From NCBI RefSeq assembly GCF_007097485.1, contig NZ_VKDE01000023.1, positions 1 through 64,000 on the forward strand: a stretch of 64,000 nucleotides of DNA, written 5' to 3'. The notes beneath the pieces are model-generated. The model did no database searches, was not told the DNA's origin, and saw only the letters and a program-made list of their open reading frames with translations. How positions within the stretch are numbered: the stretch's first letter is position 1; every line of letters begins with the position of its first letter. This stretch comes from Carboxylicivirga sp. M1479. Its GTDB lineage: Bacteria > Bacteroidota > Bacteroidia > Bacteroidales > Marinilabiliaceae. Below, piece by piece: positions 141 through 52,383 of the stretch. The translations under genes were made by a program, and so were the position numbers.

Positions 141-319
141 CGTTACTACATACTTTCAATACCCATGCTTACGATGCTTTTTAAACTCTAAAAATTGAAT
201 TGATGATAGTCATCCTTTAGTTTCATGGATCAATAGATAATCTTGTGGACAAAGAATAAACAGTGTACTTTCAAATCCATGATTTTACAAACAACAATAA
301 TCGTGATTAATTCTTTTGG

Positions 320-760
320 ATGATACAACAGATTGGCTGGTAGCTAATGCAGAAGGGGTGATATTAAATGTAGATGGCGTTTTAGATAAAACAACATGGC
401 TCGTAGTAAATGTCAAAGGGGTTCTGTCTTTTGCAAGATGGATTTTATCCAATGTAATAGGCGATTTATCCTTTGCAGATGGCTTTTGAACCACTGTAGA
501 AGGCATGTTATCGAACGTAACAGAGGATTATTACAATGCCAGAGTGGATTTAGCCGTTTTAGCATGCGATTGATATAAGCTATAAGCCAGTTTAGCTGCC
601 TACAGCAAGGATTTGATGACTGACTGGCTTCGTTGAGCAATTTATGTCATCGCTTTAGTGCCTTACAAAAACGATATAGCAACTGTATATCGCCATTTAC
701 CGAATGAAGGCAGTGACTTGACAACAGTAGATACCTATTTTAAAGCTGGAGTTGTTTAAT
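320..760. repeat. Degenerate 21-bp tandem array 1 (about 20 units)
   Basis: Reading from 320 in 21-bp steps gives about 20 or 21 units in register with no phase slip. A typical unit is near TAgcaAtGtagaaGGgatT. Columns 1-2 are mostly TA, columns 8-9 often TG, columns 15-16 often GG, and units usually end in TT. The units at 341-550 are the best conserved and later units drift. Because 21 is divisible by 3, short open frames on both strands show heptad-like repeats, but they lack start context and look like by-products. The array lies downstream of pyrH. Its consensus is unrelated to those of the arrays at 35588 and 52190. Confidence 0.8.
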
Positions 761-938
761 TCAGAAGTGATACACTTTGGGGCACGAGTCCTCTCGTGTA
801 GTTTGTTTTAGATATGTAGTTTGATATCCCTTTGGCTTGTGTTCGTATCATCACCGATTCATCATTGGTTCAACCTCGCTCCGAGCGAGCTTGAGTCGTA
901 TAAGAGCCATTGCTGGCTTATTAGCGGTACAATGAAGA
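761..938. other. Non-coding stretch with small hairpins
   Basis: No convincing gene. Two perfect 6-bp inverted repeats are visible: CACGAG/CTCGTG at 783-798 and CTCGCT/AGCGAG at 875-889. They resemble repetitive or structured intergenic DNA between the 21-bp array and the pyrH terminator; no family is recognised. Confidence 0.4.
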
Positions 939-999: not shown

Positions 1000-1707
1000 T
1001 TAGTTTTTAACTAAAGTACCAATGTTTTCTCCTTTGAGTACTTTTATCAAGTTACCTTTGGTATCCATGTCAAAAACCACAATGTCTAAATTGTTTTCCT
1101 TGCACATGGTCGTTGCCGTTAAATCCATAATTTTAAGACCACGGTTATATATTTCGTCAAAGGTAATTTCATCAAACTTAGTTGCCGTTGGATCCTTTTC
1201 AGGATCAGCCGTATAAATACCATCAACTCTGGTTCCTTTGAGCATAACATCGGCTTCTATTTCTATGCCTCGTAAAGATGAGCCTGTATCTGTTGTGAAG
1301 TAGGGGTTACCTGTTCCAGCCGATAGTATTACCACTTCTCCATTTTCAAGTGCTTCTACAGCTTTAGGCTTATCGTAATACTCTCCAACAGGATTCATAC
1401 GAATAGCTGTTAATACACGTGCCTTAACCTCCATAGCTTGTAGTGCCGATTGTAAGGCCAAACCATTAATAACGGTTGCCAACATACCCATTTGGTCACC
1501 TTTGTAACGATCAAAACCTTTTGAAGCTCCGCTTAGACCCCTGAATATGTTACCACCACCTATTACAATGCCCACTTGAACACCCATGGCAACGGCCTCT
1601 TTTATTTGCTCTGCATAGTCATTCAAGCGATCAGGGTCGATGCCATAACCTTGCTCGCCCATTAACGATTCTCCGCTAAGTTTTAATAGTACTCGATTGT
1701 ATTTCAT
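1000..1707 (-). CDS. pyrH: UMP kinase (PyrH)
   Basis: Phosphorylates UMP to UDP with ATP in cytosolic pyrimidine nucleotide synthesis. At 235 residues it has the usual length for bacterial UMP kinase of the amino-acid-kinase fold. Family marks seen are KLSGESL near the N-terminus, the glycine-rich GGGNIFRG at about 50-57, the DRYKGDQMGMLATVINGLAL stretch, a GTGNPYFTTDT motif and a DGIYTADP motif. It reads as a single-gene unit: a TATCTTTG -7 box lies 28 bp upstream and a hairpin follows the stop. In many Bacteroidota pyrH is next to frr; here the 21-bp array follows instead. Identification is firm. Confidence 0.97.
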   Translation of the reverse strand: MKYNRVLLKLSGESLMGEQGYGIDPDRLNDYAEQIKEAVAMGVQVGIVIGGGNIFRGLSGASKGFDRYKGDQMGMLATVINGLALQSALQAMEVKARVLTAIRMNPVGEYYDKPKAVEALENGEVVILSAGTGNPYFTTDTGSSLRGIEIEADVMLKGTRVDGIYTADPEKDPTATKFDEITFDEIYNRGLKIMDLTATTMCKENNLDIVVFDMDTKGNLIKVLKGENIGTLVKN

Positions 1708-35587: not shown

Positions 35588-35776
35588 CTGCTTCGGTTGA
35601 TTCTTTCTGGGTTCTATTTTACCTTATCGGGCCGTAGGTTGATATTTTCGTTACTCTATTTAAGCTTATCGGGACTTCGGTTGATACTATCGGGATGTAG
35701 GTTAACACATCCTGGGCTTCGGTTAGGACAATTTTGCCTTCGGTTGACATTTCTGAACTTCTGGTCAATCAAATAA
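35588..35776. repeat. Degenerate 21-bp tandem array 2 (9 units)
   Basis: Nine 21-bp steps in register. The best unit, near GGACTTCGGTTGATACTATCG, lies at 35672-35692. Neighbours keep the TTCGGTTGA or GTAGGTT core and a closing ATCG. One weaker unit may precede it at 35567. The plus strand is open across it and reads as heptads of the LRLILSG type, a by-product of the period. It lies between the ends of two convergent genes. Confidence 0.78.
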
Positions 35777-36567: not shown

Positions 36568-37302
36568 TTACCTATTCTTAGCAATTAATGCTGCCACTAC
36601 AGCAGCACGCAAACCACCGTCAATATTCACAACCGTTAGGTTAGGGGCACAGCTGGCCAGCATACTGGTTAGTGCTGCTTCTTTGGCTCTAAAGCCATAA
36701 CCCACCGATGTGGGTACACCAATTACTGGCAGTGGCACTAGCGATGCTACGAAAGGTGCCAAGGCTCCTTCCATGCCTGCCACCACAATAACCGCCGACA
36801 CATCTTGTTCGATGCCGAGCTTGATAGCTTCCAAAACACGGGTTGGGTGGGCAATGCCACGGTCCTCAAACACCATAGGTTCGACACCAACAGCCTTAAG
36901 AATTACCTCACACTCGTATGTTACTGGATGATCGGCTGCTCCGGCACTGATAACAAGTATTTTGCCTTTAGGTGTTGGCATCTCGCCAATAACGGTGGCA
37001 TTAACCGACCACAGCACGGGAAATTGATCTTTGAAATGCTCATTCAGTTCTTTGTAGAACGGACTACGTGATACCACCACCCGTGGATGCTTTTCGAGTA
37101 GTTTACTTGTTAACTCAATGGTTTGCTCCAGGGTTTTGTATTCGCCATAAATGATTTCAGGTATGTTCGTACGCATGCCTCTGTTCACATCTAATATGTA
37201 GCGACTGGCGGTTTCCATCCAATCCAATGAGAAATGACGTTGAGCATCTTCTTTTGATATTTCGCCTTTTTGTATCTGTTCAAATAGTTCGTCGAAAGTC
37301 AT
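36568..37302 (-). CDS. larB: LarB, nickel-pincer cofactor biosynthesis (NaAD carboxylase/hydrolase)
   Basis: LarB carboxylates nicotinic acid adenine dinucleotide and releases AMP, the first step toward the nickel-pincer nucleotide cofactor. The 244-residue protein has the N-terminal helical part and the PurE-like domain: KILVISAGAADHPVTYECEV, VFEDRGIAHPTRVLEA, VIVVAGMEGALAPFVASL, PVIGVPTSVGYG and VVNIDGGLRAAVVAALI. It follows larE by 111 bp of a short-repeat spacer. LarC and LarA are not in the window, so nickel insertion and the user enzyme must be elsewhere if the cofactor is completed. Its 3' end is partly duplicated at 35878. Confidence 0.95.
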   Translation of the reverse strand: MTFDELFEQIQKGEISKEDAQRHFSLDWMETASRYILDVNRGMRTNIPEIIYGEYKTLEQTIELTSKLLEKHPRVVVSRSPFYKELNEHFKDQFPVLWSVNATVIGEMPTPKGKILVISAGAADHPVTYECEVILKAVGVEPMVFEDRGIAHPTRVLEAIKLGIEQDVSAVIVVAGMEGALAPFVASLVPLPVIGVPTSVGYGFRAKEAALTSMLASCAPNLTVVNIDGGLRAAVVAALIAKNR

Positions 37303-37307
37303 GGTAA

Positions 37308-37412
37308 ATGAGTAATGATAAATGGTTAATGATGAATGAGTAATGGTTAATGATAAATGGTGCGTTGTAATTCAATAACTAACCATTAATAATTGATACT
37401 TAACCATTGTCC
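37308..37412. repeat. Low-complexity TTAATGGT-type spacer repeat
   Basis: Repeated units built on AATGGTTAATGAT alternate with GAGTAATG. The right part carries the reverse complement (TAACCATT), so the spacer can fold back on itself. It fills the gap between larE and larB and may be a small dispersed repeat of this lineage. Confidence 0.45.
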
Positions 37413-52189: not shown

Positions 52190-52337
52190 CACTCAACTGA
52201 GTTCATATCACGTCCAAGCTTGACAATATCACATTCAGGTGAGGCCATATCACAGTCAAGTATGTCGATGTCACATCAAGGCTATGCACTTCTCACGCTA
52301 AAGTGAGATCATATCACGGTAAAGCAGTGCCATATCA
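52190..52337. repeat. Degenerate 21-bp tandem array 3 (7 units)
   Basis: The block CATATCA or a close variant ends units at 52210, 52231, 52252, 52273, 52295, 52316 and 52337, so spacing is 21 bp six times and 22 bp once. The rest of each unit varies around CACTCAAGTGAGGC. It lies between the ends of the convergent ROK and GATase genes. The consensus differs from arrays 1 and 2. Confidence 0.78.
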
Positions 52338-52383
52338 CACTAAATAATGTATTCCGATAATCTAAACCTTACTGGACTAAATC

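Follow-up and report, generated by a model that had tools for sequence, protein, structure and literature searches.

A degenerate 21-bp array beside pyrH in Carboxylicivirga is a dispersed intergenic block within a recurrent class of arrays with units of about two helical turns

The array downstream of pyrH in Carboxylicivirga sp. M1479 is a phased, dispersed, non-coding repeat block. It is one member of a class of arrays that recurs between genes and whose units span about two helical turns. We consider it probable (roughly 60%) that this array is an old copy, by now partly decayed, of a minisatellite element dispersed between genes. It is best read as a BrickBuilt-like element without detectable terminal inverted repeats, and the likeliest host role at most loci is none, an element-like repeat being tolerated between genes. 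The features of the locus are given in coordinates of the window, which is the whole 64,000-nucleotide stretch analyzed (on the contig designated C47).

227..812, + strand: dispersed block shared with contig C109 of the same genome, about 90% identity (the blast alignment spans 227-837 and can be trusted up to about 812)
332..742, + strand: part shared with a third copy on contig C87, about 85% identity (array only, no flanks)
341..739, + strand: degenerate array core with consensus TA.c.A.Tg.a..a.gcg.TT, made up of 19 units that are each exactly 21 bp long
782..799, + strand: perfect terminator-like hairpin CACGAG-TCCT-CTCGTG, then a T-rich tail, just right of the array
1000..1707, - strand: pyrH (UMP kinase), its 3' end facing the array

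The sequence-only reading had described a strict 21-bp array at 320-760, and autocorrelation confirms that it is real. The lag-21 self-match of this stretch is 0.445, compared with 0.264±0.021 in 2000 dinucleotide shuffles (maximum, 0.326; z 8.7). Self-match is similarly high at lags 42 (0.476) and 63 (0.463) and does not exceed 0.31 at any other lag from 5 to 65; peaks thus occur at multiples of 21 only. Because lags 7 (0.253), 14 (0.276), 10, and 11 are all at background, the array has no sub-period. At this scale it is the top lag-21 stretch in the window, and TRF detects only part of it (409-512, period 42).

We scored each of the units proposed in that reading against a leave-one-out profile, and 16 of 21 fit best exactly in phase among the 21 possible offsets. 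Of the claimed twenty-unit array, the phasing stands but the count falls to about 19, since the outer units (320 and 740) are not members and the array therefore covers about 341-739. Three interior units (572, 614, and 656) are too decayed for a phase call; phase resumes beyond them, and the net effect of any indels is therefore nil, as had been claimed. The array is weaker midway than at its ends (local lag-21 of about 0.30 to 0.35 at 515-600), and the consensus is close to the proposed TA at unit starts, TG at positions 8-9, GG near 15-16, and TT at unit ends.

The locus is not a single one, which could not be seen in the sequence-only reading: the block is a dispersed repeat in three copies, and the phenomenon is genome-wide. 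A 461-bp query identified two more intergenic copies in the same genome, on C109 (92%) and C87 (85%). The C47 and C109 blocks share about 100 bp of non-repetitive left flank and about 70 bp of right flank, C87 shares the array alone, and the outer flanks of all three are unrelated. Over about 410 aligned positions, the three arrays differ by 35 to 64 substitutions, and their sole net indel is a 3-bp gap near the right edge. The earlier claim that spacing is kept while sequence drifts is thus borne out over this length, with no net phase shift. Exact 22-mers of the array had no matches in our genome contig search, and blastn against 13 congeners, 149 relatives, and 295 genomes of the order returned only the genome's own copies and one 39-bp match (G085). 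No terminal inverted repeats pair the two ends of the block (their local alignment scores 24, and shuffled sequence 21.4±3.7), and no target-site duplications are visible there; transposition is therefore only a putative step, and the C47/C109 pair could be an ordinary segmental duplication. Column constraint in the pyrH-side array gave a leave-one-out P of 0.27 over all sites and 0.006 for the strongest columns only, with noisy phase-shifted controls. An apparent conservation of consensus sites (22/236 versus 45/177) is not relied on because it is partly circular and weak in its leave-one-out version.

We compared the pyrH loci of 13 congeners, 12 of which are readable downstream (L095 has only 4 bp there). 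In these 12, the nearest predicted open reading frame, in most cases encoded on the other strand, starts 15 to 328 bp past the pyrH stop, and this locus has no array of 21 or 22 bp that reaches the threshold (best lag-21, 0.41, versus 0.54 here). Read by eye, the sequence of the downstream neighbor in several congeners resembles gldN. In strain M1479, a gldN-like gene is on a separate contig, C78, where it lies close to the end of the sequence retrieved, and C47 starts 999 bp beyond the pyrH stop; an insertion sequence may possibly lie between the two contigs. A terminator-like hairpin with GAGGGTGTCC occurs at 93-145 of the window and also beside the gldN-like gene on C78 (L194, near its end), where it is followed by an open reading frame starting MKQINFKPYNQ. 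No promoters were found near the array. The 17-bp hairpin ACACGAGAGGACTCGTG (window 783-799, - strand) is also dispersed, with four exact places in the genome and one with 1 mismatch; its other sites are C1:192963, C87:80764, C98:104382, and C109:116936, and it adjoins arrays at C47, C109, and C1. A control pattern for this search had no matches in the genome.

The window and the rest of the genome sampled contain further arrays, each with its own consensus:

Window 35591..35758, + strand: second 21-bp array, 8 units, consensus CTTcGGTTgA.acTaTCggG. (the TTCGGTTGA array of the period scan)
Window 37297..37410, + strand: array of AATGATT-like heptamers with period 7/14/21, which shares the 21-bp harmonic but is another type of tandem repeat
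Window 52197..52343, + strand: third 21-bp array, lying between convergent genes, its 7 units sharing a conserved ATATCAC...AA portion (the ATATCAC array of the period scan)
Contigs C1 and C2: GGGG...CCCC array family, from the period scan
Contig C1, 24801: GCGGC...GCCG array, from the period scan
Contig C1, 143945-144176 (L031): TAGCGAG array with 21-bp units forward and then inverted, for which the real unit order gives a better fold than shuffled units do

The period scan looked between genes for sequence that matches itself at lags p, 2p, and 3p and covered 1.05 Mb, about 20% of the genome. It identified 10 sites at period 21 and 3 at period 22, whereas the remaining periods from 8 to 39 averaged 0.9 sites (Poisson P of about 6e-8 for period 21). 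The density of distinct 21-bp arrays in this Bacteroidales-type genome is thus roughly ten per Mb. The GGGG...CCCC family occupies at least four places and is homologous unit by unit; homology between its C1 and C2 members stops at the array ends.

Congeners carry further, different arrays of 21 or 22 bp. Three of them (G007, G003, and G012; 400 kb together) have 6 sites at these periods versus 2 at all other periods from 8 to 39, and G013 has two arrays at period 21 and three at 22. G017, from another genus of the family, has two related period-20 arrays with a CCCGGG core (L106), in which spacing changes are present. Samples from the same class and phylum (400 kb) yielded one site at 21-22, and an E. 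coli sample (200 kb) yielded none. Across genomes, periods are 20 to 23 bp, mostly 21 or 22; the two-helical-turn spacing first noted beside pyrH thus recurs in arrays of unrelated sequence. The strict pattern CCCCWWGGGG-N11-CCCCWWGGGG-N11-CCCCWWGGGG, searched over about 85,000 species, matched six contigs only, titled Tannerella, Bacteroidales bacterium, or Marinilabiliaceae; because the pattern is itself palindromic, these matches are not used as evidence of palindromes.

To examine unit design, we used 21 arrays chosen by period alone. Ten of these have a dyad-symmetric consensus (P<0.05 each; combined P, 8e-10). The pyrH-side array was considered as a dyad array and rejected (P 0.86). In the C1c/C2a pair of the GGGG...CCCC family, 1 of 88 positions differs in the GGGG/CCCC core columns versus 35 of 143 elsewhere (P 1.6e-7), and column conservation is also unequal within arrays C1a, C1c, C2a, and G13a-c.

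The nearest known system is BrickBuilt, a minisatellite-containing MITE of Porphyromonas gingivalis (Klein et al. 2015, PMC4596501). Both are intergenic in Bacteroidales, have a species-specific sequence, and are built from imperfect tandem units that measure about two helical turns and contain conserved as well as non-conserved sites. BrickBuilt copies are dispersed with or without leader and tail; here, two of three copies share flanks and one is array only. Strong folds are predicted for some copies in each case. The two are set apart by unit length (23 nt versus 21 bp), by the terminal inverted repeats, matching a resident insertion sequence, that BrickBuilt has and that were not found here, by the many unrelated unit sequences in one genome here as opposed to one family, and by a dyad core in only about half of our arrays. 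P. gingivalis also has 464/PgRS (41-nt repeats) and 22-nt tandem repeats (PMC4596501), which by description are likewise repeated in tandem between genes, with units of about two or four helical turns, in a member of the Bacteroidales. Heptamer simple sequence repeats of the TAACTGA type, found in Beggiatoaceae, Cyanobacteria, and some Bacteroidetes (PMC4679880), are similarly intergenic, tandem, and lineage specific, and multiples of 7 bp include 21; however, the pyrH-side array lacks a 7- or 14-bp sub-period. Our searches of open-access papers found no 21-bp intergenic arrays described in Bacteroidota beyond P. gingivalis. A CRISPR array was rejected, as all 21-bp units are degenerate and there is no division into repeat and spacer. 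The REP/BIME sequences of proteobacteria are dispersed intergenic palindromic units in clusters and resemble our arrays in these respects but are not tandem at a fixed 21-bp step.

For a BrickBuilt-like element, we envision that each array would begin as a short local seed that expands in tandem, and that some arrays would then be copied as a block into other intergenic sites. Later change would be mainly point substitution with phase kept; in the dyad-unit subset, arms are held constant while the loop or linker drifts. The unit length of about two turns would be set by how units are expanded or recognized.

Alternatively, these could be plain slippage minisatellites undergoing neutral decay and chance segmental duplication, the 21-bp length being a mutational preference only. 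In its favor, the best ten units of the pyrH-side array have uniform columns (P 0.70), this array has no RNA, coding, or dyad signal, and 7-bp-unit arrays also occur nearby. Against it are the strong column-specific constraint in C1c/C2a, the unequal columns of the arrays named above, and the fact that copies of two array families stop at the array; we regard this explanation as possible but unlikely. We hold with similar reserve that the arrays form a lineage-wide class conserving 20- to 23-bp spacing and often a dyad, rather than sequence; such a class might be a putative platform for an architectural protein or a mobile hairpin-array element spreading by that geometry.

The sequence-only reading offered a protein-binding scaffold, a structured non-coding RNA, or relic coding repeats, and its interpretation is partly supported. 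A helically phased scaffold would place weak sites on the same face of the DNA for an architectural or oligomerizing protein, with spacing selected over sequence. The phase held through the substitutions among copies, the nearly constant GGGG/CCCC columns between C1 and C2, the dyad cores in independently found arrays, and the period of 20 to 23 throughout are all consistent with it. One sequence-specific protein cannot fit all arrays, however, because each consensus differs: no single motif is common to them. With the variable spacing of the G017 arrays and the missing dyad beside pyrH also against it, we find the scaffold doubtful.

A structured non-coding RNA of tandem hairpins is very unlikely. 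The pyrH-side array shows no fold excess (z -0.75 and -0.86 on the two strands), no effect of unit order on folding (z about 0), and only chance-level Rfam matches, none at gathering level. Some other arrays do fold far better than shuffles (C1c, z -7.7; C1a, z -3.5), which limits an RNA reading to the dyad class, and a whole-array hairpin is present in C2a and C1b, where shuffling the unit order worsens the fold (z of the real order, -3.5 and -3.8). Even so, the whole-array hairpin or order effect is absent in C1c, L105, and C47a, and hairpin arms show no convincing covariation within arrays. Descent of the array from a 7-residue repeat protein, for which one might cite the seven codons in 21 bp and the open reading frames of up to 85 amino acids with a weak heptad (LSNVKGDLSFADG) in copies of the pyrH block, hardly merits consideration, given inter-copy substitutions spread evenly over codon positions (12/11/12 and 18/21/25), stop codons in the frames of the pyrH-side array, no Pfam match for it, and units of 20, 22, or 23 bp in other arrays.

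The 22-, 23-, and 41-nt tandem repeats of P. gingivalis were treated as species-specific (PMC4596501). Together, our results suggest that intergenic arrays with a period of about two helical turns recur in the genus, with a different sequence each time, and that at least one array family is under column-specific constraint. If this is true genome-wide, the trait is the period and not the sequence, which would make these arrays a testable case, be it of recognition by helical phase or of an expansion mechanism that fixes unit length. It also raises the question of why such different sequences should keep a period so close to two helical turns.

Several individual arrays have additional features. 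The 22-bp arrays of two species, at C87:121948-122057 in strain M1479 (L012) and C11:178901-179010 in G007 (L182), have a similar core, AAAGG.TTAA..CTTT. A 21-bp array in G013 (C1:217634-218011; L055) has a five-unit (105-bp) higher-order repeat, and one 21-bp array in G003 (C126:54709-54940; L186) mixes the TGTACTT/AAGTACA and GGGGAT/ATCCCC arm types. In a Bacteroidales metagenome-assembled genome (L173:2391-2900), heptamer arrays (ATCATTC and GAACAAG) lie on either side of a 21-bp array whose GGGGAT...ATCCCC units are near-perfect.
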